From: Akkermansiaceae bacterium
Lineage (GTDB): Bacteria; Verrucomicrobiota; Verrucomicrobiia; Verrucomicrobiales; Akkermansiaceae
DNA length: 58,224 nucleotides
Reading direction: 5' to 3'
Assembly (NCBI GenBank): GCA_025354565.1
Contig: JANXMQ010000103.1
Coordinates: 1 to 58,224, forward strand
Numbering within the stretch: the stretch's first letter is position 1; each line of letters begins with the position of its first letter. Shown here piece by piece: positions 17,362 to 33,000 of this stretch. The position numbers and the translations under genes are program-made. The notes below the pieces were generated by a model. It saw only the letters and a program-made list of their open reading frames with translations, searched no databases and was not told the DNA's origin.

Positions 17362-18132
17362 ATGAAACGTTCATTTTTTCCCCGCGCCCTAGCGGTCACT
17401 TCGCTGTTGCTTCTCGGTAGCGTGACCAGTCAGGCGGAAACCACCGCCGAGCTCATCGCGAAGGGCGATGCAGCCGACAACTCCTTCAATCCATCCAAAG
17501 CTTTGGAAAGCTATCTTCCTGCTGAAAAACTCAATCCCAATGATGTCGGGCTCCTGCTCAGGATCGCACGGCAATATCGACACTTGATGTGTGACGTGTG
17601 GAATGTGAGCGACAAGCTCAAGTATGGAAATATTTCCCTAGCGTATGCGAAACGCGCCGCCGCATTGGCCCCCAACAATTCCGAAGCGCAGCTCTCGCCC
17701 GCCATCACCTACGGGAAAATGCTTCCTTATGAGGGAAAAGCTGAGCAGGTGGCAGCTTCCCCTCTGATCAAAGCGGCGGCGGATCTCGCCCTCAAGTTAG
17801 ATCCACGCAACGATACCGCCTGGCATGTGTTAGGCCGTTGGCACCAGTCACTGGCGAATATTTCGAGTGTTAGGCGAACAATCGGCGAAATCATGTATGG
17901 CAAGCTTCCCGTAGGGACCAACGCAGAGTCGGTCGATTGTTTTAATAAGGCCATTGCACTGAATCCGGGCCGCCTGAGGCATCACATCGAATTGGGCATA
18001 ACCTACGCGCAAATGGGAAACAATGCGGACGCCCGCAAATGCCTTGAGAAGGGGCTGAAAATGCCGAACAAGGAGAAAGATGATTTCGAACTCAAGGAAG
18101 TCGGGAAAGAATCCCTCGCCAAACTGCCCTAG
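17362..18132 (+). CDS. Secreted TPR protein resembling the RMDN family
   Basis: 256 residues. The ATG at 17362 opens a signal peptide (MKRSFFPRALAVTSLLLLGSVTSQA). Several TPR-like units follow. The central part matches the pattern of regulator-of-microtubule-dynamics (RMDN/FAM82) proteins: WHVLGRWHQSLANISSVRR, then IGEIMYGKLPVGT, then CFNKAIALNPGRLRHHIELG, ending with KGLKMPNKEKDDFELKE. In eukaryotes these are tethering/TPR proteins; bacterial copies have no established role. The signal peptide places this one outside the cytoplasm. Its stop codon overlaps that of the convergent amidotransferase gene within the bases CTAG. The 255-bp gap upstream (17107-17361) shows no gene. Confidence 0.8.
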   Translation: MKRSFFPRALAVTSLLLLGSVTSQAETTAELIAKGDAADNSFNPSKALESYLPAEKLNPNDVGLLLRIARQYRHLMCDVWNVSDKLKYGNISLAYAKRAAALAPNNSEAQLSPAITYGKMLPYEGKAEQVAASPLIKAAADLALKLDPRNDTAWHVLGRWHQSLANISSVRRTIGEIMYGKLPVGTNAESVDCFNKAIALNPGRLRHHIELGITYAQMGNNADARKCLEKGLKMPNKEKDDFELKEVGKESLAKLP

Positions 18133-20102
18133 TTTTTGTCCGGCTCCCATATTGGCAGGTCGGCAAGCGAACCCTCAATAAAGGTGTGGTGCCAGAGCTG
18201 CGTGGCGACGACGGCGGCGAGGCCCATTTCCATCGAGAGTCGGGAGACAGAGCTGCCGCGAAGTTGGCGAAACGCCTTGCGCCAATGTTGCACGGCGGCG
18301 ATATCAAAATAGCCGGTGCGTTTCAAGGATTCCTCGCTGAGCAGCTCACCGACGAATTTCGGCTCCGGGTCCATGTGGAAGCTGTCTAACGGCGCACGGA
18401 AGATAACCTTGCTGCGGCGGGCGATATCCTTGGGCAGCCAGCGTTCCGCAACGAGACGCAACAGATGCTTGTCGCGAAAACCTTGCAATTTCCAACTGGG
18501 ATGCAGTTTCGCGGCGAATTCAAAAACCTCCTCATCGAGAAACGGATAGCGCACCTCTACGGACGAGTGCATCGCCACGCGGTCGCCCTTGGCCTGTAGC
18601 AAATGACCGGCCAAGGTGACCCGTGCGCCGACCCACAAGCTTCGATTCAGCGGATGCCAATGCTTGGCGCGTTCGACGTTCATGCCGAGGTCCGCCCAGG
18701 GGGTGGCGTTTTTCAAAATTTCGCGCATCGGCTCGGAATAGAGGCGCAATTTCGAGAGGGCGAGCACGCCGTAGGAATCGATCCATGCGTTCGGACCGCC
18801 GACGGTGGCTTCGAGTCCCTGACGATACTCGCGCGGATACTGGGGAACACCGGTGGCTTTCAAATACGCTCGGCGGGCGACATCGCTGAGCCGCAAGCCG
18901 GGGATGGAATCGAGGCCGCCAAGGATTTTCGCGATTTTATACCACGGGTATCCGGCGAGCCATTCGTCGGCACCTTCGCCAGTGAGGACGACCTTTTGGC
19001 CGTTGCTGTGGACCTTCTGGGCGAGCTGGAGCAGGGCGGCGCATGAGGTATCGACGACCGGGCACTCGGCGGACTGGATGAGCTGCGGATACATTTCCAG
19101 CGCGTCGCTGGGTTTGAAATTCTGCACGATGGGCGGCGCCGTGCCGATGTGTTTTGCGGATTGCTCGGCTCCGCTGAGTTCGTCGAGTTTGGGATCGGTC
19201 ACTCTAACGGTGTAGGTATTGATTGCCGGCCCCTTGATGCGGCAGGCCATGGCAACGATCATGCTGGAGTCGAGTCCTCCTGATAGATAGGCTCCCACCG
19301 GGACATCGGCACGCAGGCGGCGTTCCACTGAGGCGAGCAGGATTTCCTCAAACTGGTCGGTGAGCTTGCGGGCGTCGGTCTCGGGATTTTCGTCGCCCTG
19401 GTCCGGGAAATCCATTTCCCAGTAAGCCTGCTCGCGGATGACGGGTTCGGCGGTGCCTTCGTTGCAGGGGCTGATTTGCAAATAATGGCCTGCGCCGAGG
19501 AGTTGGATGCCCTCGAAGCACGTGACTGGCCCCGGCATCGCAGCGAAGGTAAAAATGGAGTCGATACCGCGTAGGTCGGCCTTCGGCTTGAACATGCCGG
19601 ACGCAAGCAGCCCTTTAATTTCGGAAGCAAATAGTAGCCAATCGCCCTGCCGCGTCCAATATAGCGGGCTGATCCCGAAGCGGTCGCGGCCCAGCGTGAT
19701 CCGATGGCGGCGCTCGTCATACATGGCGATGGCGAACTGCCCGCGCAGCCGCAGAAACATGCCTTCCTCGCTCTCTTCCCAGAGGTGGGGAATGATTTCC
19801 GTATCGCAATGGGTGTGCAAGCGGTGGCCGCGGGCCGTGAGCTCGGCGCGCTTTTCCACGTAGTCGAAAAGCTCGCCATTATAAACAACATGGATGTTGC
19901 CGTCCTCGTTGCACATCGGCTGCTGGCCATCTGCGACCCCGACAATACTCAGCCGCCGCGAAGCAAATGTCAGCCCCGGTCGCCGCAGGAATCCCTCTTC
20001 ATCCGGGCCTCGGTGGATCAGCGCCCGAGACATCCGCTCGACCACGCCATCCGGCACATCTCGTCTTCCCGCCAAGTCAATTACTCCCGCTATGCCGCAC
20101 AT
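18129..20102 (-). CDS. asnB: Asparagine synthetase (glutamine-hydrolysing)-like amidotransferase
   Basis: 657 residues starting at MCGIAGVIDL, which leaves Cys2 as the glutaminase nucleophile after Met removal; an upstream in-frame ATG at 20198 would block that Cys. The GATase domain (about 2-220) has RGPDEEG, SRRLSIVG and YNGELFDY. The synthetase domain carries the PP-loop SGGLDSSM near residue 275. It adenylates a carboxylate and transfers ammonia from glutamine. The gene is divergent from the polyketide synthase with 325 bp between. Many lineage-specific AsnB-like proteins amidate secondary metabolites or envelope polymers, so amidation of a pathway product is possible. Housekeeping asparagine synthesis is the alternative. 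Confidence 0.88.
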   Translation of the reverse strand: MCGIAGVIDLAGRRDVPDGVVERMSRALIHRGPDEEGFLRRPGLTFASRRLSIVGVADGQQPMCNEDGNIHVVYNGELFDYVEKRAELTARGHRLHTHCDTEIIPHLWEESEEGMFLRLRGQFAIAMYDERRHRITLGRDRFGISPLYWTRQGDWLLFASEIKGLLASGMFKPKADLRGIDSIFTFAAMPGPVTCFEGIQLLGAGHYLQISPCNEGTAEPVIREQAYWEMDFPDQGDENPETDARKLTDQFEEILLASVERRLRADVPVGAYLSGGLDSSMIVAMACRIKGPAINTYTVRVTDPKLDELSGAEQSAKHIGTAPPIVQNFKPSDALEMYPQLIQSAECPVVDTSCAALLQLAQKVHSNGQKVVLTGEGADEWLAGYPWYKIAKILGGLDSIPGLRLSDVARRAYLKATGVPQYPREYRQGLEATVGGPNAWIDSYGVLALSKLRLYSEPMREILKNATPWADLGMNVERAKHWHPLNRSLWVGARVTLAGHLLQAKGDRVAMHSSVEVRYPFLDEEVFEFAAKLHPSWKLQGFRDKHLLRLVAERWLPKDIARRSKVIFRAPLDSFHMDPEPKFVGELLSEESLKRTGYFDIAAVQHWRKAFRQLRGSSVSRLSMEMGLAAVVATQLWHHTFIEGSLADLPIWEPDKN

Positions 20103-20427: not shown

Positions 20428-23400
20428 ATGTCCCGTCTCCAGCCTCTGACTCCTTCACCCTCAGTGCATTTAAATAGAGCCCAGAGAGAAATCGGCAAGG
20501 AGGACATTGCCATTATCGGGATCGGCTGTCGCTTTCCAAGCGGGGTGAATGATGCCGAATCTTTCTGGAAACTGCTGGCCGAGGGACGCGATGCCGTGTC
20601 CGAAGTGCCTACCGACCGTTGGAACGTAGAACGCTACTACGACGCCGAACCCGGATTGGCTGGCAAGTCGATCGCCAAGCGCGGTGGTTTCCTCGATCAG
20701 ATCGACCAATTCGACCCGCAGTTTTTCGGGATTTCCCCACGCGAGGCTCCTTACATCGACCCGCAACAACGACTACTGCTAGAGACCGCGTGGGAAGCGA
20801 TCGAGGACGCGGGGCAGGTGCTGGACTTGGAAAAGGGCACCGACATCGGCGTCTTCATGGGAGTTTCCCACAACGACTATCAGAATATCCAAGGCGGCGG
20901 CACGGATCGCAAGGGCATCAGCGCGCACTCGCCGACTGGCAGCGCGCACAGCATCGCGGCCAACCGGATTTCCTACTGCTTTAATCTATCAGGCCCGAGT
21001 CTGTCGATGGACACCGCCTGTTCGTCCGCGCTGACCGCCGTTCATCTGGCGTGCGAATCGCTGCGGGCCGGTCGTTGCAAAATGGCGATGGCGGGCGGGG
21101 TGACGGTGATCATCACGCCGGACGGCTTCATCGGATTTTCCCAAGCGGGAATGCTCTCGCCGGACGGCAAGTGCAAGGCATTCGCGGCCGAGGCCAACGG
21201 CTTTGTCCGCGGCGAAGGTGCGGGCATCGTCTTGCTTAAACCGCTTTCCCAAGCCATTGCGGATGGCGATCCGATTCAAGGGGTGATCCTCGGTTCCGCG
21301 CTGAACCAGGACGGTCATACGAACGGAATTTCCCTGCCTAGCACCGAGGCGCAGACGCAACTTGTGCGTGATGCCTGCGCTGATGCGGGGATCGCACCGG
21401 CGGATGTGGACTTCGTGGAAGCGCACGGCACCGGCACTGCGGTGGGCGATCCCATTGAGGCCATCGCGCTCGCGAACGCCCTTTGCGGAGAGCGCGAAAC
21501 GGCGCTGCCAATCGGCTCGGTGAAAACCAACCTCGGCCACTTGGAAACCGCAGCCGGCGTCGTCGGTCTGATCAAGGGGATGCTGGTCCTCAAACATGGC
21601 GAGATTCCGCCGAGTTTGCATTTTGAAAACCCAAGCCCGCACATCGACATGCCGGGATTGAAACTGCGCGTGCCCACAAAGCTGGAGAAATTTTCTGGCT
21701 CGACCGGTCGCCGCATCGCCGGGGTGAACTCGTTCGGCTTCGGCGGTGCGAACGCGCACGTTATTCTAGCAGAGCCGCCTGTTAGCACGCTCAAGACAGA
21801 GGAAAATTTCCTGCTGGACCGCTCGTGGCCGCTGGTGATTTCCGCGCGTTCCGAGGAGGCGCTTAAAGCCACCGCCGGGCGCTTGGGTGATTGGATCGAG
21901 TCGCACGAGTTGGGTAATGGAACCTCTCCGGTTCTGCCGAAATTGACTTACACACTTGGTGCCCGCCGGAACCACCACGCGCACCGGCTGACGGTCGTCG
22001 CGAGTTCGTCCACCGAACTCACTGAAGAGCTGCGCGAGTTTGCCGCCGGATCGACGGTGGGCAAGGGCCGCGCGTCGTTCACGCCGCGGCCGGAATTTGC
22101 ACCGCGCATCGGTTTCGTCATGAGCGGCCAGGGTCCGCAGTGGTGGGGCATGGGCCGCGAGCTGATGGCCAACGAGCCAGTGTTCCGCGAGGTGATAGAA
22201 GCCTGTGAAGCGGCGATGCGTCCGTATGCGAGTTTCTCGCTGCTGAAGGAACTTAGTCGCGATGAGGCGGATTCGAGAATTCAACTAACTGAAATTGCCC
22301 AACCAGCGATTTTCGCGATGCAGCTCGCGTTAGTGGCGCTGTGGAAATCGCTCGGCGTGGAGCCGGCCGCCGTCGTGGGCCACAGCGTCGGCGAGGTCGC
22401 GGCAGCGTGCGTCGCCGGGATTCTAACATTGGAAGAAGCCGCGCGCGTGATCGTGCTGCGCGCCCGGTTCATGCATGAATGCGCCCGTGGCGAGGGGACC
22501 ATGCTGGCCGTTAGTCTATCCGAAGATGAGGCGTTGGCATTGATCGCCCGCCACGACCCGACGGTGAGCATCGCAGCGTTCAACGGCCCGCGCTCGCTGA
22601 CTCTGGCCGGGGTAAAATCCTCGCTCGAAGCGATCCACGCCGAGCTGGAGCCGCAGAATGTTTTCGCCCGCTTCGTGCGCGTGGATCATCCGTATCATCA
22701 CGCGATGATGCAGCCCGCTGCGGATCGCCTGAACAAGGATCTATCCGATATTTCGCCGAACGAGGAGGCGGTGCCGTTTTTCAGCACGGTCACCGGTGAG
22801 CGTTGCGCGGGCAAAAACTGCGTCGCCGCGCATTGGGGCAAGGGAATCCGCCAGTCGGTCCAGTTCGTGAAGGCCGTCGATGCGGTTGCGGATTTCGGAG
22901 TCGATGTCTGGTTGGAAATCAGCTCGCACCCGGCGCTATCGATGTCGATCACGGAATGTCTAACTGCCCGTGGTCTCAAAGGCCAGGTGACCGCATCCAC
23001 CCGCCGCGACAGAGAACACGAATCCTATCTGGAAGCCGCTCTGGAACTGCATCGGGGTGGGGTGGTTCTTGATTTTTCCGCGATGACTCCGTCGCGAGAA
23101 GTTCTTTCGCTGCCCGCCTATCCATTTGATCGGGCCCGCTGGTGGCACGAGTGCAGTGAACTGCGCGATGCCCGTCTCGCACCGGGTGGAAAAGGCCTGC
23201 TAGACTCCCGCCAACCGCGTGCCACGCCTACATGGACGACCCGTCTCGACGGTCGTCACATGGCTTTCCTCAAGGATCACAAGGTAGATAGCCACATCAT
23301 TTTCCCGGCCGCCGGCTTTGTGGAAATGGCGTTGGAAGCCGGATTGCAATTGTTTGAAGGACGACCGTTCGCGATCGAGGATTTTGAAATCCGCCGTCCG

Positions 23401-26400
23401 CTGATTCTGCCAGATCCCGCGTCGGCGCTGATGATCGAACTCACCTACGAACCTGCCGAGCGCACGTTCACGATTCAGAGCAAGTTCGATCAAGCCGCTT
23501 CATGGTCGGTGCATGTCATCGGCTCGATGCGCAGCGAGCGGACGGAATCCACGTTCGGAAATTCGTTGTTAGAAGCCCCTGATGCCGATCTGGAATCGGA
23601 AGGCGTCGGCGCGTTTTATGGTCACATGAGCGACCTCGGTCTCCGCTACGGCGACGAGTTCAAGCCGATCCGTGAACTGGCCGCTGGAGGCGGGAAATCG
23701 GCGGGTCGCGTTTCACTATCAGAAGCGATTGCATCCCGCGCGTCGGAATACGCACTTCATCCAGTGCTACTAGACGGTGCGCTACAGGTGTTTTCCGCCG
23801 GAGCCAAGACGGTCGAGGATCGCAAGGCAAAGATGAAACTGCCGGTGCGTTTTGCGAGAATCTTATTCCTGCGCACTCCGGGTGCCTCCACCCAAGTCCG
23901 TGCGAAGGTTCTGCATTTTAACGAAGAATTGATCGAAGGCCGCATCGGTCTCTACGACGAATCCGGCCGCCCGTGCGTGCTAGTGGATGGTTTCCGCGCC
24001 GTCAGCATGTCGGCCGTTCGCCGCGCCGGTGCTTCCGGTGGCAGCCGTGATTTGGTTTACCATGTCGATTGGGAACGCACCGCGCCGACCATAGCGCCAT
24101 CCGCACAAGCGCCGATTCCGCTGGCTCAACTTCGGGACGTCGCAAGCAAGGCGCTGGAAGAAGTCATCGACCTGCGCGGTCGCTCCGAACTCGAATCGAT
24201 GATAGCTTCCGAAGATGATTTGGCCGCCGCGCTCATCGCCAGTGGACTTCGCGAAATGGGCGTGAGTGGCGAGTTTTCCGCAAGCTCCCTAGGCGTTGCG
24301 GCGCCCATGCTAACGGTTTTCGGTCGCTTGATGAACAAGCTCACCGAGCGTGGATTGCTCACCGTGAGAGGCGACAAATACGCTCCGACGGCAGCCCTCA
24401 AGACAGCGGCGGATGCAAGCCAGGAGGCACTGCGTGATTTCCTAACCGAGCATCCCGGACATTTACCGGAAGCACTGCTGTGTGCTTCCAGTTGTGGGGA
24501 ATTCGGGGCGATTATCCGTGGCGAAAAAGACGCCGTCCAAGTCCTCTTCGGCGGGGCCAACGCGGATCTGCTAGATCATTTCTACGGCGACGGACTTGTT
24601 TCCAGCCACTGGATGGCCAGCATCGGCTGCGCGGTGCAGGAAGCGGCGCGCAGCCTGCCCGAGGGCCGTGGATTACGGATTCTCGAAGTGGGTGCAGGCA
24701 CCGCTGGCCTGGCCGCACAAGTCCTGCCCCTGCTGGATCGCGGAATTCACAACTATACCTTCACCGACGTTTCCGCCGGATTTTTCTCCGCTGCTAACCA
24801 AAAACTCGCGGCTTTCCCCGAGGTGGAATACAAAGTCCTCGACCTCGAAAAGCCTGCGGCCGATCAGGACTTCGAGCCCGGCAGTTATGATTTCATCGTC
24901 GGCACCAACGTCATTCACGCCGTCGCGGATGTCCGTGTGACCTTGAAAATGCTGCACGAACTACTCGTCCCTGGTGGTACGTTGATGTTCATGGACGTTG
25001 CGACTCCGCAACTTTGGACCGAGTCAGTATTTGGCCTAACACAAGGTTGGTGGCATCTAACCGACCGCGATCTGCGGCCGGATCAACCGCTGATGCAGCG
25101 GGACCAATGGGAGTCTGCGATGAAGCAAGCCGGCTTCACCGAAACCATTTCGATGGCGGGTCTCCGAGGGCCGGAAGGCGAGGGGCAAGTCGCCCTTCTG
25201 GGACGGAAAGCTAGCCAAGTTGTTGCGGAGGTCTCCGCATTGGAAGTGCCGGTCGAAGCCTCATGGGTCATCTTCGCCGACGAATCCGGACTCGGAAATG
25301 AAATCGCCGCGCAAGTCACCGCAGCCGGTTCGCGCTGCCGCATCGTACGCCGGGGAGACAAATTCTCAGACACGGGTGCTGACCATTTCACGGTCCGCGA
25401 TCAAGAGCCTGAAGATTGGAAACAACTTTTCGCCGCGCTCTTGAAGGACACTCCGCCGGAACGTTTTGTCTGGCTGTGGTCACTCGATGAAAACACTAAC
25501 GATGCACTGATGGGCATCGACTCGCTGCTTCACCTAACTCACGCGCTTGAAGCTAACATGGCTGTCGTGAAACTGCGGATCGACCTCGTCACCCGCGGCG
25601 CCCAACCGGTGGGCATCGGCATGGGAGCAACCGCCGTCGCCCAGGCACCTTCTATCGGAATTTTCCGGGTCATCCTCGGCGAGCATCCGAATTTCGCCTG
25701 TCGTGGCATCGACCTCCCGACCGCCGCATCTTCTAACGATCAGGGCCTGCTCTGGAGCGAACTGCTCCACCCGGACACCGAGCGTGAAGTCGCCCTGCGC
25801 GGCGAGGCCCGCTACGTCCAACGCATCACCCGTGGGTTTGAAAATCATGAACAACGCCTCGATTCCTCGGTGCCGCTGCGCCTCGAATCCCGCGAGCGCG
25901 GACTGCTCGACAGCCTGCGTTTCACGCCGTTTGAACTTCCATCGTGCGCACCCGGGGAAGTGCTGATCCACGTGAAAGCCGCGGGTATGAACTTCCGTGA
26001 CGTGCTCAAAGCACTCGCGCTTTACCCCGCAGAAACCGCCGACGCGCGGATCTTCGGCGACGAAGTGGCGGGTGAAGTGATCGCGGTCGGCGTAGGTGTC
26101 ACTCATCTAGCAGTTGGAGACAAGGCGTTCGGTCTCGCAGTTTTCGGGCTGGCGACCCACACGCTGGCCCGCGCCGCCGATGTTCGGAAAATGCCGGACA
26201 ATCTTTCCTACGAAGAAGCCGCGACGCTGCCGGTCGTCTTCATGACGGCATGGTATGCCTTGCGCAACGTCGCCCGGATGAAAGCCGGTGAAAGCATTCT
26301 CGTTCACGCGGGTGCCGGGGGTGTCGGCATGGCGGCGATCCAAATCGCCCATCATCTGGGTGCCGATGTCATCGCCTCTGCCGGAAGTCCGACTAAGCGC

Positions 26401-28110
26401 GCCTTGCTCAAAACGCTCGGCGTCAAACACGTCATCGACTCGCGCCGCGGCGATTTCGCGGAGTCCGTCATGGAGCTAACAAACGGTCGTGGCGTGGACG
26501 TCGTCCTCAACGCGCTCGCCGCCGAAGCGATTCCGATGGGACTTTCCTGCCTCGCCGAGTCCGGGCGTTTCCTCGAAATCGGCAAGCGCGACATTTACAT
26601 GAACTCCCGCATCCCGCTGTGGGGACTGCGCCGGAATTCCTCGTTCCACGTCATCGCCATGGACGCGATCTTCGCGGGCGACGAGGATCAAACCCGCAAT
26701 CTGCTGGCGCAAATCGCCGGTCTGGTCGATCAAGGTGCGCTCACTCCCCTGCCATTCCGTTCGTTCCCCGCAAGCCGGATCGACGCCGCATTCCGGCTCA
26801 TGGCCGGCGGCAAGCACACTGGCAAAGTGGTCGTCGGATTCGCCGAATCCTTCATCCTGCGCAAAGGCGAACCGCCGTTGCCCGCCTTCTCTATCAAATC
26901 GGACGGTGCCTATCTCATCACCGGCGGACTCGGCGGATTTGGCCGGGTGCTCGCGGAGTGGCTCGTCGAGTGCGGCGCACGCCATCTCGTCCTCAGCAGC
27001 CGCAGCGGTGCTTCCACGCCGGAAGCCGTGGAGTTCGTGGCGAAACTCGAAGCCCAGGGAATCAAGGTCACCGTCGCCAAGGCGGACATCGGTTCGCCCG
27101 ACGACGTGAAGCGCCTCGTTGCCGAAATCCCCGCGCTCAAGGGTGTTTTCCACCTCGCGATGGTCATCGACGATGCGCCGCTCTCCGCTCTAACTGCCGA
27201 GCGGCTGCGTGCGGTAATGGCCCCGAAAGCCCACGGCGCGTGGCTGCTGCATGAAAACACGAAGGGCTTGGACCTCGACTGCTTCGTGATGTTCTCGTCA
27301 GTTTCGAGCATCTTCGGCAATCCGGCGCAAGGCAACTACGCGGCGGCAAATGCTTTCCTCGATTCACTTGCCCACCATCGTCGTGCGCTGGGACTTCCCG
27401 CGCTGGCGATCAACTGGGGAGTGTTAGGCGGCGAAGGTTATGTTGCAAGAAACGAGCGTGTTGCCGAGTTCCTTGCCCGTCAAGGCACCGGTGCCCTAAC
27501 ACCTACTGAGGTCACTTCGCTGATGGAGTCCTTCCTGACCGGTCACTCCACTCAGATGTCCGCGATCCGTGTGGACTGGGCGAAATGGCGGCAATCGTTC
27601 CGCGGCATGCAGGACAACCCGCTGGTCGAGCGCATTTTCGCCGCAGGCGTCGAAACGCAGGAAGCCGGCGGTGGTGGCAACGACTGGCGTGCCAAGATCC
27701 AAGCCGCATCGGCAGAAGATCGCAATGGTGTCATCGGCGAGGCCGTGCGCGATGTCGTCGGCTCAGTACTGCGGGTCAAGCCGGACAGCCTCCGCGAAGA
27801 CCAACCTCTAACCGACCTCGGCCTCGACTCACTGATGGGCGTGGAAATCGAGACGATGTTGGAGAGTTCCATCGGCGTCGCACTGCCACCGACCAGCTTG
27901 ATGCGGGCGCGGACGATCGGCCAGATCGCCAACTTGATCGCGGAGCAAATGGGCACCGATTCCGATGCTCCGGCGAAGGTGCTGGTCGCCGAGGCGGCCA
28001 CCAGCAGCGAGGAAATCGACCTCGACTCGATTTCCGATGAGGATCTCGATATTTTGTTAAGTGGCGTGTCGGAGTCTGATGACGCCGCCGACAAAACCCT
28101 CGTCCACTGA
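20428..28110 (+). CDS. Type I polyketide synthase, single fully reducing module with C-methyltransferase
   Basis: 2,560 residues. Domain order: KS ~25-450 (Cys198 in DTACSS, His333 in EAHGTGT, His371 in NLGHLE); AT ~560-850 (Ser653 in GHSVGE, His757 in VDHPYHH, which suggests malonyl); DH ~920-1200 (His951 in HKVDSHIIFP, where Ser replaces the usual Gly; Asp1116 in HPVLLDGALQ); methyltransferase ~1235-1590 with a winged-helix lead-in and SAM loop LEVGAGTAG; structural psiKR ~1610-1800; ER ~1815-2140 (HAGAGGVGMAA); KR ~2155-2390 (TGGLGGFG, Tyr2304; IDD at 2247-2249); ACP with Ser2468 in LGLDSLM. There is no thioesterase; the tail is an acidic segment. The layout equals fungal highly reducing PKSs and is probably iterative, giving a reduced, methyl-branched chain held on the ACP. 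It heads the operon and its stop overlaps the next start. Confidence 0.96.
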   Translation: MSRLQPLTPSPSVHLNRAQREIGKEDIAIIGIGCRFPSGVNDAESFWKLLAEGRDAVSEVPTDRWNVERYYDAEPGLAGKSIAKRGGFLDQIDQFDPQFFGISPREAPYIDPQQRLLLETAWEAIEDAGQVLDLEKGTDIGVFMGVSHNDYQNIQGGGTDRKGISAHSPTGSAHSIAANRISYCFNLSGPSLSMDTACSSALTAVHLACESLRAGRCKMAMAGGVTVIITPDGFIGFSQAGMLSPDGKCKAFAAEANGFVRGEGAGIVLLKPLSQAIADGDPIQGVILGSALNQDGHTNGISLPSTEAQTQLVRDACADAGIAPADVDFVEAHGTGTAVGDPIEAIALANALCGERETALPIGSVKTNLGHLETAAGVVGLIKGMLVLKHGEIPPSLHFENPSPHIDMPGLKLRVPTKLEKFSGSTGRRIAGVNSFGFGGANAHVILAEPPVSTLKTEENFLLDRSWPLVISARSEEALKATAGRLGDWIESHELGNGTSPVLPKLTYTLGARRNHHAHRLTVVASSSTELTEELREFAAGSTVGKGRASFTPRPEFAPRIGFVMSGQGPQWWGMGRELMANEPVFREVIEACEAAMRPYASFSLLKELSRDEADSRIQLTEIAQPAIFAMQLALVALWKSLGVEPAAVVGHSVGEVAAACVAGILTLEEAARVIVLRARFMHECARGEGTMLAVSLSEDEALALIARHDPTVSIAAFNGPRSLTLAGVKSSLEAIHAELEPQNVFARFVRVDHPYHHAMMQPAADRLNKDLSDISPNEEAVPFFSTVTGERCAGKNCVAAHWGKGIRQSVQFVKAVDAVADFGVDVWLEISSHPALSMSITECLTARGLKGQVTASTRRDREHESYLEAALELHRGGVVLDFSAMTPSREVLSLPAYPFDRARWWHECSELRDARLAPGGKGLLDSRQPRATPTWTTRLDGRHMAFLKDHKVDSHIIFPAAGFVEMALEAGLQLFEGRPFAIEDFEIRRPLILPDPASALMIELTYEPAERTFTIQSKFDQAASWSVHVIGSMRSERTESTFGNSLLEAPDADLESEGVGAFYGHMSDLGLRYGDEFKPIRELAAGGGKSAGRVSLSEAIASRASEYALHPVLLDGALQVFSAGAKTVEDRKAKMKLPVRFARILFLRTPGASTQVRAKVLHFNEELIEGRIGLYDESGRPCVLVDGFRAVSMSAVRRAGASGGSRDLVYHVDWERTAPTIAPSAQAPIPLAQLRDVASKALEEVIDLRGRSELESMIASEDDLAAALIASGLREMGVSGEFSASSLGVAAPMLTVFGRLMNKLTERGLLTVRGDKYAPTAALKTAADASQEALRDFLTEHPGHLPEALLCASSCGEFGAIIRGEKDAVQVLFGGANADLLDHFYGDGLVSSHWMASIGCAVQEAARSLPEGRGLRILEVGAGTAGLAAQVLPLLDRGIHNYTFTDVSAGFFSAANQKLAAFPEVEYKVLDLEKPAADQDFEPGSYDFIVGTNVIHAVADVRVTLKMLHELLVPGGTLMFMDVATPQLWTESVFGLTQGWWHLTDRDLRPDQPLMQRDQWESAMKQAGFTETISMAGLRGPEGEGQVALLGRKASQVVAEVSALEVPVEASWVIFADESGLGNEIAAQVTAAGSRCRIVRRGDKFSDTGADHFTVRDQEPEDWKQLFAALLKDTPPERFVWLWSLDENTNDALMGIDSLLHLTHALEANMAVVKLRIDLVTRGAQPVGIGMGATAVAQAPSIGIFRVILGEHPNFACRGIDLPTAASSNDQGLLWSELLHPDTEREVALRGEARYVQRITRGFENHEQRLDSSVPLRLESRERGLLDSLRFTPFELPSCAPGEVLIHVKAAGMNFRDVLKALALYPAETADARIFGDEVAGEVIAVGVGVTHLAVGDKAFGLAVFGLATHTLARAADVRKMPDNLSYEEAATLPVVFMTAWYALRNVARMKAGESILVHAGAGGVGMAAIQIAHHLGADVIASAGSPTKRALLKTLGVKHVIDSRRGDFAESVMELTNGRGVDVVLNALAAEAIPMGLSCLAESGRFLEIGKRDIYMNSRIPLWGLRRNSSFHVIAMDAIFAGDEDQTRNLLAQIAGLVDQGALTPLPFRSFPASRIDAAFRLMAGGKHTGKVVVGFAESFILRKGEPPLPAFSIKSDGAYLITGGLGGFGRVLAEWLVECGARHLVLSSRSGASTPEAVEFVAKLEAQGIKVTVAKADIGSPDDVKRLVAEIPALKGVFHLAMVIDDAPLSALTAERLRAVMAPKAHGAWLLHENTKGLDLDCFVMFSSVSSIFGNPAQGNYAAANAFLDSLAHHRRALGLPALAINWGVLGGEGYVARNERVAEFLARQGTGALTPTEVTSLMESFLTGHSTQMSAIRVDWAKWRQSFRGMQDNPLVERIFAAGVETQEAGGGGNDWRAKIQAASAEDRNGVIGEAVRDVVGSVLRVKPDSLREDQPLTDLGLDSLMGVEIETMLESSIGVALPPTSLMRARTIGQIANLIAEQMGTDSDAPAKVLVAEAATSSEEIDLDSISDEDLDILLSGVSESDDAADKTLVH

Positions 28111-29465
28111 TGTCGGATCCGCGAGCACAATTCAAGCGCTGGCTGGAAAGCGGGGAAGCTCGCCTGCAACCCGTCAGCCTGCCGCAGAGGGAATTGTGGG
28201 AAAATTCGCCTGTCCCGGTTGCCGATGCCGCCAACCACATTTGCGGTGTGATCGAGATCAAGGGACCGATCACCCATGAGCAGTGCGAGGCGGCGCTCCA
28301 GCGGGTGATCGACCGCCACGAGGCGCTGCGGACTTCATTTCTGCCGGGAAAAGAGCGCCCGCTGCAGATGATCCGTACCACCGTCGCGGCGGTGTTAGGG
28401 TATCGCGAGTTGTTAGCGGGCGATGACTTGGAAGCGGTGATGCAGGAAACCTATCGGCAACCGTTCGATCTGCTCCAGGGCCCTGTCCACCGCGTGAAAA
28501 TGATCCGTCGCGGTGCGAATGATCATATCTTGGCGTTTTCCTTACACCACGCCATCGCCGACGGTTGGTCGCTCGGAATTTTCGTGCAGGACCTATGCAC
28601 GGCGTATGTCATGGGTCTAACCGGTCTGCGCAAGACCGTCGCCGTCGGCATGATGGGTTTGAAAAATTCGCTGCCGCCGGTCGCACAAACTTACAGTGAA
28701 TGGGCTGCCACCGAACGGGCATTCTGGCAATCTGAGGAACTCGAACGCCGCGCGGAATTCTGGAAAACCCACCTCGCCGGATCGGCGCGGATCTGGGACG
28801 TAGAGGGGCTATCGGGTCCATTGGAACGCTGGGTTTCAGCCATTCCGGCAGATCTGGTGCGGAGTGTAAAAGCTCTAGCTGTTAGTCACGGCACCACGCT
28901 TTTCAGCACGCTGTTGGCGGCGTTTCAGCTCACACTTTCGAAATCGACAGGCAAGAGCGATATCCTCGTGGGCACGCCAGTCGCGAATCGCAATAAGGAT
29001 TCCATTCGCGAAACGATGGGCTACTTCGCCGGAGTCGTTCCGATTCGCGGGCATGTCGATCCTACGCGGAATTTCTCAGACCACTTGCGAAACGTCTCGG
29101 AAACGACGCTGGATTGCTTCGCCAATGCCATGCCCTTCGCCGAACTTGCCGCCGCAATTGGCGAGAAGCGCGTAACGGGGCAGCATTCCATATTCGACGT
29201 CCGCTTCGCGCTTCAGAACCATCCGGTGCCGGATGTCGTGCTGCCGCGTATTTCCAGCAAACTGCGGATGCGTTCGACTGGCACCGCCCGTTTCGATCTC
29301 GGTTGTGAGATCACTGCGGACGGTGATAGCCTTGAGGTCGTCTGGTTATTTCGCAGCAGGCTTTTACCCCTTGCGGAGATCAAAAACCTCGACCATCTCT
29401 ATCGGGTCACACTCGCCGCTGCCTGCCGCTCGTCTTCACCCACCTTCATGACCGACTCTCGATGA
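28110..29465 (+). CDS. Stand-alone condensation-domain acyltransferase
   Basis: 451 residues, one complete condensation-fold domain. The active-site motif HHxxxDG is intact (His146-His147-Ala-Ile-Ala-Asp151-Gly152). The N-terminal HICGVIEIKGPITHEQCEAA and the later VGTPVANRNKD also match the family. There is no adenylation or carrier domain. Known free-standing members (for example PapA enzymes) move an acyl chain from a carrier protein to an alcohol or amine. Directly after a PKS without thioesterase (1-nt TGATG overlap), its likely job is to release the polyketide by esterification or amidation onto an acceptor. The acceptor cannot be read from the sequence. Confidence 0.92.
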   Translation: MSDPRAQFKRWLESGEARLQPVSLPQRELWENSPVPVADAANHICGVIEIKGPITHEQCEAALQRVIDRHEALRTSFLPGKERPLQMIRTTVAAVLGYRELLAGDDLEAVMQETYRQPFDLLQGPVHRVKMIRRGANDHILAFSLHHAIADGWSLGIFVQDLCTAYVMGLTGLRKTVAVGMMGLKNSLPPVAQTYSEWAATERAFWQSEELERRAEFWKTHLAGSARIWDVEGLSGPLERWVSAIPADLVRSVKALAVSHGTTLFSTLLAAFQLTLSKSTGKSDILVGTPVANRNKDSIRETMGYFAGVVPIRGHVDPTRNFSDHLRNVSETTLDCFANAMPFAELAAAIGEKRVTGQHSIFDVRFALQNHPVPDVVLPRISSKLRMRSTGTARFDLGCEITADGDSLEVVWLFRSRLLPLAEIKNLDHLYRVTLAAACRSSSPTFMTDSR

Positions 29466-30412
29466 AAACGCTGCCACCAGACATCGGCGACGAGCCACAT
29501 TGGGTGAGCCGCCAAGCATTCCAGATCGTGATTTTCATGACTCTTTTCGCCCAGATTGCGATGTTCGTGATCTTGAAGAGCGGAATTTCGCTGTGGTGGG
29601 CCGTGCCGGTTGTGCTGGTCATCAGCCATCTGATGCATGGCGCTGCGGTTGGATTTCATGAAGCATCGCACGGCCTGCTGCGACGCAACCGACGCTTCAA
29701 CGAGTTCGACGGCGTGCTCATCGGCGTGCTGAGTTTCATGAGCTTCAGCCTCTATCGGGCGTCGCATCAATCGCATCATGCGCACTTCACCACGGAAAGA
29801 GATGAGGAACTCTGGCCCTTCGTTTTCATCTCATCGCCACGTTGGTTCCGTATCCTCATCGCCTTCGTGGAACTCACATGTGGACTATTCTTCGTGCCTT
29901 TCCTGTTCCTTCGAACTTTCCTCCGCAAAGGCTCGCCGATCCGTAGCAAGAAGGTCCGCAAACGCATCTGGCAGGAACTCATATTGATGGTTGTAGCTTG
30001 GATCGTGATCCTCTCGACGGTTGCTTACTTCGATCTGTGGAAATATTTCCTGTTGATGTTTTTCATCCCCTCTTTCATCGCGGGAAATCTCCAAAGTTGG
30101 CGGAAATACATCGAGCACGTCGGTCTAACTGGCAGCACGATCAACAGCGGCACCCGCAGTATTGTCGCTAATACTTGGACTGGAAAACTGGTGGCCTTCA
30201 CCTTGTTGCACGAGCCGTTTCACGGCCTGCATCACTTGCACGTCGGTCTTCCGCACGCCGAGCTTCCCAGGCTCGCACCGGAACTTGAGCCCCAGCATCC
30301 AGACGAGATTCATCCATTCCCGAGCTATCATCATGCCATGCTGCATCTGATCCGCAACCTTGCGGATCCGCAGGTGGGTGCCCAATGGCGCACATCCGAC
30401 CCTACCTCATGA
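29462..30412 (+). CDS. Membrane fatty-acid desaturase / hydroxylase
   Basis: 316 residues with about four hydrophobic segments (roughly 20-38, 45-62, 132-152, 172-205). Three histidine clusters of the di-iron membrane desaturase family are present: HEASH (66-70), HQSHH (102-106) and HGLHH (254-258), the last in HEPFHGLHHLH. It should introduce a double bond or hydroxyl into an acyl chain at the inner membrane using O2. Its ATGA overlap with the condensation gene, and with the ABC gene downstream, places it in the same polycistron, so the substrate is probably the PKS product or its acceptor lipid. Confidence 0.93.
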   Translation: MKTLPPDIGDEPHWVSRQAFQIVIFMTLFAQIAMFVILKSGISLWWAVPVVLVISHLMHGAAVGFHEASHGLLRRNRRFNEFDGVLIGVLSFMSFSLYRASHQSHHAHFTTERDEELWPFVFISSPRWFRILIAFVELTCGLFFVPFLFLRTFLRKGSPIRSKKVRKRIWQELILMVVAWIVILSTVAYFDLWKYFLLMFFIPSFIAGNLQSWRKYIEHVGLTGSTINSGTRSIVANTWTGKLVAFTLLHEPFHGLHHLHVGLPHAELPRLAPELEPQHPDEIHPFPSYHHAMLHLIRNLADPQVGAQWRTSDPTS

Positions 30413-31116
30413 AACAAATTCTATCCGACTTCGGGTCCGCCGCCGTATTCGAGGTGACCGGTCTTAAAAAAAACTACGACGATGGCAACGTGCAAGCCTT
30501 GCGCGGCGTGGACTTAAAGATCGACCAAGGAGAATTCGTGGCGATCACCGGTCCGAGTGGTTGTGGGAAATCGACACTGCTGCAGATGCTCGGTGCGCTC
30601 GATTCGCCGAATGACGGTACCTTGAATTACCGTGGAAAATCACTTCCCGGTTTGGCTGATCTTGCCGCTTATCGGGCGAAAGAAATCGGTATTATTTTTC
30701 AGGCGTTCCATCTGCTGCCGACATTCACTGCGGTTGAAAACGTGCAACTGCCGATGTTTGAAAGCGACCGACCCGCTTCGGAGCGAAAGGATCAGGCGAT
30801 CAGTTTGCTGAAAGCCGTGGGCTTGGAACATCGCATCAATCATTTCCCCACTAAACTATCAGGTGGTGAACGTCAGCGTGTCGCCATCGCCCGCAGTCTA
30901 GCCAATGGCCCATCCGTTTTACTCGCCGACGAACCTACGGGAAACCTCGACAGCGAAAACGCGCACATCATCCTCGACCTCATCATCCGCCTTCATCGCG
31001 AACAAAACATGACTCTCGTGCTGGTAACGCACGATCTAACCATCGCCGCCCGCGCGTCACGAACTATCCAGATGATGGACGGACGAATCCTATCCGACAA
31101 CAACGCCACCTCATGA
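30409..31116 (+). CDS. ABC transporter ATPase, MacB/LolD type
   Basis: 235 residues using the ATG at 30409, which overlaps the desaturase stop as ATGA; an ATG at 30385 would add eight residues inside the upstream gene. Walker A GPSGCGKST (48-56), Q-loop Gln98, signature LSGGERQR (150-157), Walker B LLADEPTGNLD and H-loop His208 are all intact. The sequence around KELGIIF-type Q-loop and EPTGNLDSENA is the LolD/MacB/FtsE group, which power lipid or lipoprotein extraction and not import. With the permease next door it forms a complete exporter, presumably for the product of this operon. Confidence 0.96.
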   Translation: MKQILSDFGSAAVFEVTGLKKNYDDGNVQALRGVDLKIDQGEFVAITGPSGCGKSTLLQMLGALDSPNDGTLNYRGKSLPGLADLAAYRAKEIGIIFQAFHLLPTFTAVENVQLPMFESDRPASERKDQAISLLKAVGLEHRINHFPTKLSGGERQRVAIARSLANGPSVLLADEPTGNLDSENAHIILDLIIRLHREQNMTLVLVTHDLTIAARASRTIQMMDGRILSDNNATS

Positions 31117-32228
31117 CATTTTTCACCGTTATCGTGCGTGGGTTGATGAGGCGTCCGGTCCGCACCGGCCTGACACTTGTCGGAATCTCCATCGGCATTG
31201 CCGCCGTCGTGGCCCTAGTCGGTATTTCACGAGGCTTCGAGCAAAGTTGGTCGAAGGGCATGAAGGCACGTGGCACGGACATTGTTGTTAGCAATATGGG
31301 CAACGCGCTCGCTCCGAAGCCTTTCAACTCCTCCCTCCGAGACAGTATCGTTAGTCTCCCGAAAATTGCGGCCACCTGCGGGCTGTTTGTCGATCTAACG
31401 AGCATCGAGAGTTCATCGATGACCATCGTCTCCGCTCGCGAGTGGGGCGGATTTGCTTGGCAAAGTCTCAATCTCGTTTCCGGTCGCCTGCCCAAGGATG
31501 CGATGGAGCCAGTAGTCGTGCTCGGCCAGAATGCCGCGGAAGTGCTCAAGAAAAAGCTTGGCGATCCAATCCAAATTGAAGCCAAGGAATTGACCGTTGT
31601 CGGAATCGTCGATGGCGGCGCACTCGTAGAAAACGGCTCGGTGATCCTGTCTCTGCCGCTCTATCAGAAAATATCTAGCAACGAGGGCAAGATTAACATT
31701 ATCGACATCCGTGCCACTCCAGGCTTGAATGAGGAAGATATAAAAAAGCTATGCGCTGAGATCAATGTCCTCATCCCAGAAGCCCGCGCGATGCCGGCCG
31801 GCGACAATGTGGGCAACAGCCAAGCCTACAAATTCATCAGCGCCATGAGCTGGGGAACCTCGCTGCTGGCGGTGATCGTCGGCGTGTTAGGCGTGATGAA
31901 CACGATGCTCATGACCGTTTTCGAACGGAAGCAGGAAATCTGCATCCTGCTCGCCATCGGCTGGCGGCGTGCCCGCATCATCCGCATGGTGCTTTTGGAA
32001 TCCGCGCTGCTAGGCCTGCTTGGCGGCATCGGCGGGGTGATGATCGGCAGCATCGGCGTGAAGGTCTTGGAGCGGATGCCTGCGATCCACGGTTTACTGG
32101 AACCGGATCTCAGTCCGCGCCTGATGGCGATTTCAGTGGCAATCTCAGTAATCGTGGGCGTCATTAGCGGACTCTATCCTGCCTGGCGCAGCTCGAGGCT
32201 CAAACCGAGTCTCGCGATGCAAGGCTAA
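31113..32228 (+). CDS. MacB/LolCE-type ABC permease
   Basis: 371 residues, four membrane helices in the MacB topology: one near 18-37, a periplasmic domain of ~200 residues, then three at about 246-268, 290-312 and 331-355. The end LYPAWRSSRLKPSLAMQG is the typical FtsX/MacB C-terminal coupling segment. The start overlaps the ATPase stop by 4 nt. These permeases do not form a channel for their cargo but transmit force to the periplasm (mechanotransmission), matching extraction of a lipid from the inner membrane to a carrier such as the protein encoded next. One permease gene means the transporter is probably a homodimer. Confidence 0.95.
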   Translation: MTFFTVIVRGLMRRPVRTGLTLVGISIGIAAVVALVGISRGFEQSWSKGMKARGTDIVVSNMGNALAPKPFNSSLRDSIVSLPKIAATCGLFVDLTSIESSSMTIVSAREWGGFAWQSLNLVSGRLPKDAMEPVVVLGQNAAEVLKKKLGDPIQIEAKELTVVGIVDGGALVENGSVILSLPLYQKISSNEGKINIIDIRATPGLNEEDIKKLCAEINVLIPEARAMPAGDNVGNSQAYKFISAMSWGTSLLAVIVGVLGVMNTMLMTVFERKQEICILLAIGWRRARIIRMVLLESALLGLLGGIGGVMIGSIGVKVLERMPAIHGLLEPDLSPRLMAISVAISVIVGVISGLYPAWRSSRLKPSLAMQG

Positions 32229-32244
32229 CCCGCTCAACCACTCC

Positions 32245-33000
32245 ATGAAATCCTTCCTATCCCTTATTACGCTAGCCGTTCTCGGTCTTCCCGCATCCGC
32301 GCAGGAGCCGGATGCCAAGGCCCTCGCCGCCCAGCTCGCTGGTCTCCAGCAGGACGGCTCGTCTTTCGCCCGGGTCAAGATGGATGGGAAAACGGCTGAG
32401 GGAGCGAAGTTCACATTACAGCTTCAGATCAAGCAACGCCGCACCGCGAAATCGACCGAGCTGCTTTACCAAGTCCTCTGGCCAAAAGAACGCGCCGGCG
32501 AGGCCGTGCTTCTCAAGCAATCCGGTGGAGAGATGTCAGGCACCGTCTTCATTCCGCCGGACAAATTCCAGACTCTTACCGCCGGGCAGATGAAGGAAGC
32601 GCTCTTCGGCAGCTCGCTTTCCTATGCGGATGTGCTCGAAAACTTTTTCACTTGGAACAGCCAGAATATCGTTGGCACGGAGGTGCTGAACAAGGTGAGT
32701 TGCCAAGTTCTCGAATCGCGATCCGGTTCCGCCGCTGTCCGCAGTTGGATCGATATGAAGCGCCTCGTTCCGATGCGGGTGGAAAAATACCTTCCGGCTG
32801 GAACTGCGGTCCGCAGGATCGAGACAAGGTTCGTCACTAACGACGATACCAACCGCAATATCCCCGCGAAGCTTGCCATACAGGATCTCCAGAAAGGCAC
32901 ATCGACCGACCTCGAAGGCTCCAAGCTCAAGCATGGAGTCACCTATGACAACCGCGACTTTACGGCGGAAGGTTTGAAAAACATCAATCCGCCGGGTTAA
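32245..33000 (+). CDS. LolA-like periplasmic outer-membrane lipid/lipoprotein carrier
   Basis: 251 residues with a signal peptide (MKSFLSLITLAVLGLPASA). The mature part is the half-barrel LolA/LolB-like type annotated as outer membrane lipoprotein-sorting protein: FTLQLQIKQRRTAKSTELLY, then SGGEMSGTVFIPPDKFQTL, then CQVLESR..SWIDMKRLVPMRVEKY. No lipobox, so it is soluble in the periplasm. Such carriers shield an acyl group on its way to the outer membrane. The gap to the permease is only 16 nt. Position directly after a LolD/LolCE-like exporter and a lipid-making set is the basis for assigning it to transport of the operon's lipid. Confidence 0.88.
   Translation: MKSFLSLITLAVLGLPASAQEPDAKALAAQLAGLQQDGSSFARVKMDGKTAEGAKFTLQLQIKQRRTAKSTELLYQVLWPKERAGEAVLLKQSGGEMSGTVFIPPDKFQTLTAGQMKEALFGSSLSYADVLENFFTWNSQNIVGTEVLNKVSCQVLESRSGSAAVRSWIDMKRLVPMRVEKYLPAGTAVRRIETRFVTNDDTNRNIPAKLAIQDLQKGTSTDLEGSKLKHGVTYDNRDFTAEGLKNINPPG

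Follow-up and report, generated by a model that had tools for sequence, protein, structure and literature searches.

A polyketide synthase cluster with an ABC pair and a LolA-like carrier is a probable lipid assembly-and-export locus of Verrucomicrobiota

Our study reports on a gene cluster in a 58,224-nucleotide stretch of DNA from an Akkermansiaceae bacterium (the window), in which a reducing polyketide synthase (PKS) is encoded together with modifying enzymes, an ABC pair and a LolA-like carrier. The genes are as follows:

17362..18132, + strand: TPR protein with a signal peptide identified by eye and RMD1-3/TPR Pfam matches; ORF listed from 17338; convergent with AsnB
18129..20102, - strand: AsnB-type glutamine-dependent amidotransferase, divergent from the PKS; MCGIAG start set by orthologues; ORF listed to 20198
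20428..28110, + strand: single-module reducing type I PKS with Pfam domains KS-AT-DH-methyltransferase-ER-KR-ACP
28110..29465, + strand: free-standing condensation-domain protein (COND); PF00668, HHxxxDG
29462..30412, + strand: membrane di-iron desaturase/hydroxylase (DES); FA_desaturase PF00487, three His boxes
30385..31116, + strand: LolD/MacB-type ABC ATPase; ABC_tran; start may be 30409
31113..32228, + strand: MacB/LolCE-fold permease (PERM); MacB_PCD and FtsX, four hydrophobic segments
32245..33000, + strand: Sec-exported soluble LolA-like carrier of the LolA3 type; LolA_like PF17131

From the PKS onwards, successive genes of the six-gene block overlap by 1, 4, 28 and 4 nt, and a 16-nt gap precedes the carrier gene; the 28-nt overlap between DES and the ATPase may shrink to 4 nt if the ATPase begins at its second Met (30409). 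A first-pass annotation had described six genes that overlap by 1-4 nt or lie 16 nt apart; its positions, the 1-, 4- and 4-nt overlaps and the gap stand, while its range holds for the DES/ATPase junction only with the second-Met start. The family names that it gave the six genes are borne out by profile matches and intact motifs, but it missed the AsnB-type and TPR genes to the left, which also belong to the conserved neighborhood. The ORF at 33150-34139 was left out of the cluster because L081, of the same genus, was the only locus in which a homologue was seen.

The catalytic motifs of the PKS are intact across 37 aligned PKSs; the DD and NY residues of the KR are found in every row of the alignment (37/37), and the HPxH motif of the AT, which we take to resemble the malonyl HAFH motif, in 33 of the 37. 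No thioesterase was found among its Pfam matches. The best PDB relative of the PKS is MAS, and its score against the mycobacterial Mas/Pks2-type family NF041183 is 1228.9 bits, below the cut-off of 2400. COND matches PF00668 with 206.8 bits and carries the HHxxxDG motif shared by all 45 aligned sequences; its orthologues, distinct from NRPS C domains, occur in 17 of 384 genomes of the host's class. DES matches PF00487 with 116 bits and its three His boxes are kept in 48/48 aligned sequences; a search of the PDB with a five-sequence profile gave no relative at E 1. Two PPTase-type genes are present in the host genome.

The AsnB-type protein belongs to TIGR01536 (393.3 bits, above the cut-off of 267.1), scores 390 bits against TIGR03108, below that family's cut-off of 816.9, and has the N-terminal Cys in the sequence MCGIAG, as do all 11 aligned proteins. 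Of 17 wide loci, 14 have its gene next to the PKS and divergent from it, three of them across a gap of 2.2-3.1 kb; after leaving out two wide loci fetched through AsnB or permease matches, the count is 12 of 15. Among 16 loci with 0.8-1.2 kb of upstream sequence it stands beside the PKS in eight, being less common in one subtype; it is absent from this position in three of the wide and eight of the shorter loci. Among the searched genomes of this AsnB-less subtype, a close copy was found only in G587, away from the cluster. The AsnB-type gene is the sole such gene found in G000 at E 1e-15, and could for this reason be the housekeeping asparagine synthetase. Homologues of the TPR protein (48-77% identity) were found in 10 of 17 loci whose sequence extends 2 kb or more to the upstream side of the PKS, or 8 of 15 once the two loci fetched through AsnB or permease matches are left out, and sit at three different places with respect to the PKS.

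The best family for the ATPase is TIGR02211 (LolD), at 244.5 bits and under the cut-off of 307.75; against DevA (TIGR02982) it scores 195.5 bits, below 295.8. Walker A, signature and Walker B motifs are present in all 42 aligned sequences. The permease reaches 42 bits against TIGR02212 (LolC/E), whose cut-off of 362.45 is also missed by the host's own LolCE-type protein (two pieces, of 131 and 96 bits) and by all matches in five genomes. A profile of the permease matches MacB structures best (102 bits, against 61 for LolC and 36 for LolF). This last result, together with the frequent presence of PKSs, free C domains and AsnB proteins in antibiotic clusters, could be taken to mean that the PKS makes a diffusible specialized metabolite, with the MacB-type ABC pair as an efflux or self-protection pump and the LolA-like protein as a periplasmic binder. 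We consider this unlikely, as the ATPase and permease are unfused, unlike in MacAB-TolC systems, no MacA-type adaptor or TolC was found among the Pfam matches of the operon, and a soluble LolA-fold carrier is encoded instead. Furthermore, a MacA/MacB/TolC-like set, named by eye from its ORFs (MacB_PCD 171 bits), is present elsewhere in the genome (L095). The predicted fold of the permease separates LolE (Z 24.1, rmsd 7.8 over 357) poorly from MacB (Z 21.4, rmsd 8.4 over 358), so that the case against an efflux pump is a lean rather than a proof. The Pfam matches of the operon also include no RND/MMPL exporter and no discrete FAS-like enzymes, and no Omp85-family protein was found among the 28 window ORFs scanned.

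The first-pass annotation had called the last gene of the block LolA-like, and this holds for both profile and predicted fold, the family being LolA_like PF17131, the only profile reported, and not the canonical LolA family PF03548. The model (pLDDT 89.5) has a LolA fold with three tied nearest structures: 4z48 (Z 26.4, rmsd 2.8 over 225), Porphyromonas gingivalis LolA3 9tp6 (Z 26.2, rmsd 2.8 over 227) and 3bk5 (Z 26.0, rmsd 2.5 over 224). The carrier profile also matches P. gingivalis LolA3. Canonical LolA structures give Z scores of about 9-13 (Pseudomonas aeruginosa LolA 2w7q: 13.0, rmsd 3.6 over 174), and the carrier stands well apart from Escherichia coli LolA. A lipobox-like Cys is missing in 40 of 41 LolA-like sequences, including that of the window; the remaining one (L047) is ambiguous. 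A second PF17131 protein is encoded in the host genome (C219, 54 bits), with no cluster genes beside it (L036).

The initial annotation had named the case in which the trio of ATPase, permease and carrier is the only general lipoprotein sorting system as one that would speak against it. Separate genes are present: the PF03548 match of the host genome lies on contig C56, away from the operon, and a LolCE-type permease is found elsewhere, in addition to the MacAB-TolC-like set. The LolA and LolCE-type genes rule out the housekeeping role and, judged by sequence, the export trio is not the housekeeping Lol machinery. The LolD-like ATPase and LolA fold would also suit a specialized lipoprotein branch, whose cargo would be a neighboring lipoprotein, perhaps anchored by a polyketide acyl chain. 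An alpha/beta-hydrolase protein adjoins several clusters, with a lipobox recognized by eye in L031, L044, L056 and L066, and a polyketide anchor is proposed as an alternative for E. coli ApeA in the part of the source covered (PMC8253772). Neither the window nor most AsnB-type loci showed the hydrolase gene, and the trio accompanies the PKS far more often than it accompanies the hydrolase, which makes this explanation an improbable one.

All six genes are found together in 34 of 44 related Verrucomicrobiota loci, and their order is conserved across records that bear the names Akkermansiaceae, Verrucomicrobiaceae, Chthoniobacteraceae and Opitutus. Among the 384 genomes of the host's class, COND was found in 17, DES in 19 and PERM in 17, with at most four to five candidates scored per genome; COND is accompanied by DES in 17/17 genomes and by PERM in 16/17 (Fisher p about 1e-27 and 4e-26, in a statistic that ignores kinship). 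This is the co-occurrence check proposed with the first-pass annotation, and along with the overlapping genes it supports the claim of one operon serving one system. Two genomes in which the block is split still contain all its parts, in further support of one system: G581 has AsnB, PKS, COND, ATPase, permease and LolA-like genes together and the desaturase on a separate contig, and G579 has the trio on a different contig from PKS-COND-DES. Other genomes depart from the pattern. In G582 the desaturase and the trio lie on different contigs, with no COND orthologue found at E 1e-60. G578 and G580, whose completeness is not given, contain PKS-COND-DES with no close permease found, although G580 retains an ATPase fragment (L039); in G344 the permeases are only 43% identical. 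The desaturase occurs alone in G013 and G364 and the permease alone in G537, trios of the same kind lie without a PKS nearby at L035 and L103, and an internal TGA interrupts the desaturase of G549 and the cluster permease of G510. A chance neighborhood of a PKS operon and a separate envelope operon could account for trios without PKS and PKSs without trio, both of which occur, yet it is highly improbable in view of the synteny and co-occurrence. The carriers of the gene set are soil and water Verrucomicrobiota.

The window cluster is a mosaic, with PKS and COND from one subtype and AsnB, DES and exporter from another. The same mosaic lies on a 1.17-Mb contig of G496 (L081), and an assembly chimera is thus ruled out as its cause. 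On phylogenetic grounds, the window cluster is a recombinant in which PKS and COND were swapped as a unit. PKS and COND also show the tightest distance correlation (r 0.89, with species relatedness uncontrolled). The correlations left out duplicates (L031, L082-L084), near-copies (L057, L064) and L035, and the trees these and L085.

Taken together, we propose that the locus is probably a lipid assembly-and-export cluster using a Lol-like mechanism distinct from the lipoprotein Lol system. The PKS, with its domains intact, would iteratively build, on its ACP, an acyl chain that is reduced and alpha-methyl-branched. The absence of a thioesterase leads us to propose that the free COND releases this chain, unloading it onto an amine or hydroxyl acceptor, and the membrane di-iron enzyme would desaturate or hydroxylate the acyl group. 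Where present, AsnB may add a carboxamide; as it was retained when the PKS was replaced, the head group or acceptor is a likelier site than the PKS starter. The ABC transporter, with the ATPase and the permease each in two copies, would lift the finished lipid out of the inner membrane. The soluble LolA3-type carrier would then receive the lipid and take it through the periplasm to the outer membrane, perhaps together with the TPR protein; no outer-membrane receptor gene was seen at the locus. The product, acceptor and outer-membrane destination are those we infer. A bolder version, which we put forward tentatively as possible and short of probable, is that of a Verrucomicrobiota-specific outer-membrane lipid with a branched polyketide chain, amidated in one subtype, for which a Lol-type route, made up of an ABC extractor and a LolA3-class carrier, has switched from lipoprotein to free-lipid cargo, and of PKS and COND cassettes swapped between lineages on a constant chassis of amidation, desaturation and export.

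Apart from LPS and lipoproteins, the way in which hydrophobic lipids cross the periplasm is an open question in most phyla. The cluster links a defined synthesis enzyme with a defined Lol-like carrier, making cargo and machine testable together, for example in Verrucomicrobium sp. BvORR034 and BvORR106, which have all six genes in records not marked as MAGs. It also suggests a possible role for P. gingivalis LolA3-like carriers, whose function is left open by the LolA3 authors in the part of their account covered.

Each part of the cluster is familiar, and the combination appears to be undescribed: a literature search aimed at it, mostly without subscription papers, found no description of the six-gene combination and, as first noted, no Verrucomicrobiota counterpart. 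The mycobacterial PDIM pathway (Mas, PapA5, LppX, MmpL7) shares a reducing PKS, a free condensation-fold acyltransferase and a LolA-fold carrier; it differs in that its carrier LppX is a lipoprotein, while the window carrier has no lipobox-like Cys, its exporter is MmpL7/DrrABC, and Mas lacks the methyltransferase domain present in the window PKS. The flexirubin synthesis genes differ from those of the window cluster; the DevBCA exporter is MacB-related and the heterocyst glycolipid chain is PKS-made. In some respect, each of the aryl polyene, flexirubin, heterocyst glycolipid and Borrelia BBJ23-29 systems resembles the cluster more closely than the PDIM pathway with which the first-pass annotation compared it.

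According to the parts of these sources covered, the E. coli aryl polyene clusters (ApeL/ApeM/ApeN) likewise give a polyketide-type acyl chain an exporter of its own, which includes a LolA-like chaperone, and a proposed outer-membrane location. They differ in using discrete fatty-acid-synthase-like enzymes, a LolB-like partner and, in place of the ABC pair, an RND transporter; neither a condensation protein nor a desaturase or AsnB is listed in the covered portion of their gene table (PMC8253772). The flexirubin operon of Flavobacterium johnsoniae likewise contains a LolA-fold carrier, proposed to carry the pigment or its precursor, but as a LolA2/LolB2 pair whose pigment-carrier role is untested according to its authors (PMC11885536). 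Heterocyst HgdD-DevBCA is an ABC exporter for a glycolipid that acts with the TolC-like HgdD, and a LolA-like carrier is not mentioned in the part covered (PMC6161253). Fungal SoaA/SoaC resembles the cluster in pairing a highly reducing PKS with an amidotransferase, which converts the acid made by the PKS into its amide, sorbamide; it differs in that a hydrolase frees the acid, and in the part covered none of the named soa genes encodes an exporter (PMC13284220). The Borrelia BBJ23-29 locus differs in its Omp85-family protein and in that no lipid-making gene is named in the part covered, whereas its BBJ26-28 module, matched by description, has the same combination of ATPase, MacB-like permease and Sec-exported LolA-like carrier (PMC13078400).

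The first-pass annotation had read six adjacent genes as one operon for making a polyketide lipid and exporting it to the outer membrane. All six open reading frames lie where it placed them, on the plus strand, and domain scans bear out the families that it named; two neighbouring genes, a TPR gene and an AsnB-type gene, had been missed.

17362-18132, plus strand: TPR protein
18129-20102, minus strand: AsnB-type protein
20428-28110, plus strand: polyketide synthase (PKS), KS-AT-DH-methyltransferase-ER-KR-ACP, with no thioesterase among the domain-scan matches
28110-29465, plus strand: Condensation protein
29462-30412, plus strand: FA_desaturase
30385-31116, plus strand: ABC ATPase, closest to LolD
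31113-32228, plus strand: MacB_PCD/FtsX permease
32245-33000, plus strand: PF17131 LolA_like carrier

The proposed spacing stands for three overlaps (1, 4 and 4 nt) and the final 16-nt gap, but not for the desaturase/ATPase overlap, which is 28 nt, or 4 nt should the second Met be the ATPase start. The window spans an entire contig, one of 257 in a 5.1-Mb genome; it also encodes a 2670-aa protein matching TPR and alpha-2-macroglobulin (MG2, bait region) domains (37215-45227, minus strand) and a SOGP/GH94-type glycoside phosphorylase adjoining a GH20-like protein (10632-14000, plus strand).

A scan with the desaturase alignment against genomes of 84,980 species, which required exact short peptide patterns and so gives a lower bound, found at least 32 loci, all in records named Verrucomicrobiota or its subgroups; the named record with the desaturase closest to the window's bears the label Akkermansiaceae. 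The set was widened with same-phylum genomes and the genomes behind some named loci; the count omits L035 (ATPase, permease and carrier trio only) and L038, L040, L041, L045, L060 and L067 (same genome covered by wider loci). Tblastn matches to all six genes were found in 34 of 44 loci, a few of them near-identical, with some PKS matches among the 34 truncated by contig ends. About 5 kb separates the desaturase from the downstream trio in L061, and the LolA-like gene precedes the ATPase in L031 and L044. The ten incomplete loci comprise L039 (only an ATPase fragment), L042 (no LolA-like match), L043 and L083 (lacking a cluster-type trio), L052 (trio on a different contig), L097 (desaturase elsewhere), L058 (desaturase only), and L051, L053 and L066 (truncated at contig ends). 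An IS200-type transposase (L058:8717-9838) lies immediately upstream of the solitary desaturase in L058, whose genome has no condensation orthologue; this looks like cluster breakage.

Motif alignments used near-full-length rows only, with four genomes present twice. By pattern counts, KS, AT, DH, methyltransferase and ACP motifs are intact in 37/37 PKSs and the ER motif in 35/37 (Ser replaces Ala in two); KR residues are present in all 37 aligned rows. HHxxxDG occurs in 45/45 condensation proteins, the His boxes in 48/48 desaturases and the ABC motifs in 42/42 ATPases. Frames are broken in the L085 desaturase and the L087 permease; in L087 and G510:C13:27879-30174 a TGA interrupts the cluster permease, and an intact permease with a desaturase piece lies on another contig. 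A further condensation-domain protein (1367-aa ORF) is encoded in the window's genome at L096, contig C143, near a PPTase-type gene. The PKS would act iteratively on a chain of putative structure, and the acceptor and order of steps are likewise putative.

Co-occurrence was scored on no more than four to five candidates per genome in 384 class genomes. On that basis, condensation orthologues (8e-127 or better; next match 3.6e-54) occur in 17 genomes, the desaturase in 19 and a permease of at least 54% identity in 17; the desaturase accompanies the condensation protein in 17/17 genomes and the permease in 16/17, the exception being G344 (Fisher p ~1e-27 and ~4e-26, respectively, not corrected for shared ancestry). 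Against a single system stand G578 and G580, where a close permease was not found, and G582, in which desaturase and trio are present without a condensation orthologue. Gene splits within one genome provide a telling natural test of co-function: G581 (L038, L097) carries AsnB, PKS, condensation protein, ATPase, permease and LolA on a single contig and the desaturase on another. In G579 the trio is accompanied by hydrolase and methyltransferase-like genes and lies separate from the PKS, condensation and desaturase genes.

That the trio is simply the general Lol system, with no second copy, is ruled out by a separate PF03548 LolA (contig C56) and LolCE-type permease (C10) in the window's genome; a TolC, MacA and MacB set was identified by eye on C172. 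Among 288 phylum genomes, LolA-like matches at E <= 0.001 occur in 36, and those below 1e-50 are confined to the window's genome plus four more, each of which carries the cluster; the cluster-type carrier is thus not universal. G234, with the trio alone, matches at 2e-20. A Sec signal was seen by eye in the carrier, and a lipobox is absent in 40/41 LolA-like sequences. Against the carrier model (pLDDT 89.5), 4z48, P. gingivalis LolA3 and 3bk5 tie at Z 26, compared with 15.3 for P. gingivalis LolB and about 9-13 for canonical LolA entries. Aligned to the permease model (pLDDT 82.2), the non-canonical S. pneumoniae ABC transporter 5xu1 gives Z 25.8 (rmsd 4.8 over 353), compared with Z 24.1 for LolE (rmsd 7.8 over 357) and Z 21.4 for MacB (rmsd 8.4 over 358); MacB is the permease's best sequence-profile match. 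The exporter's presumed cargo would be a polyketide lipid and its presumed destination the outer membrane.

Of 17 loci that reach 2 kb or more upstream of the PKS, 14 have a divergent AsnB-type gene there, or 12/15 excluding L097 and L100, which entered through AsnB or permease matches; it is missing beside the PKS in L082, L091 and L092. The gap is 2.2-3.1 kb in L083, L089 and L100 and 0.16-0.3 kb in the rest of the 14. Where 0.8-1.2 kb of upstream sequence is available, AsnB is present in 8 of 16 additional loci, and most without it belong to a second cluster subtype; among searched genomes of that subtype only G587 has a close AsnB, located elsewhere. Its N-terminal Cys is kept in 11/11 aligned sequences, and its top solved-structure relative is 7ylz, labelled hydroxyamidotransferase. 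AsnB may have a housekeeping role, since it is the single such gene detected in the window's genome at E 1e-15. The TPR protein, with a signal peptide seen by eye, adjoins the cluster in 10/17 loci at varying positions. Many second-subtype loci carry methyltransferase-like X370 (weak Pfam match) and an alpha/beta hydrolase (L044:15071-18004; homologues in L031, L056, L061, L066, L091, L092 and L099); L031 and L044 have both plus AsnB. The hydrolase bears a lipobox, seen by eye, in L031, L044, L056 and L066.

Quick trees place the window's desaturase and permease with AsnB-type clusters; the LolA-like tree concurs weakly, with only the pairing of the window with L081, its same-genus locus, starred. 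The condensation and PKS (residues 1-900) trees nest the window in the second subtype. Because the groups were named with distances already seen, both p values serve as a guide; the desaturase rejects the alternative grouping (AU p 0.004), and the condensation protein does so weakly (p 0.038). Identity switches in the final ~30 residues of the condensation protein, near window position 29370. Assembly error is ruled out because L081 has the same pattern. Co-variation is tightest between PKS and condensation protein (r 0.89). The simplest reading of these sequences is that synthesis and release may form one unit and amidation, desaturation and export another.

The literature searched yielded no report of a PKS, condensation, desaturase and trio cluster; in the available portions of the sources, a type I PKS is mentioned without detail for Luteolibacter soli (PMC11427321) and soil verrucomicrobial PKS clusters are counted in general (PMC8692599). 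The available excerpts on other systems describe aryl polyene clusters with a LolA-like chaperone and RND transporter (PMC8253772), heterocyst glycolipid export by HgdD-DevBCA (PMC6161253), and flexirubin operons containing LolA2/LolB2, according to their authors the putative first case of such specialisation (PMC11885536). Borrelia BBJ23-29, as excerpted, resembles the trio described here, with the addition of TPR proteins and Omp85 (PMC13078400).
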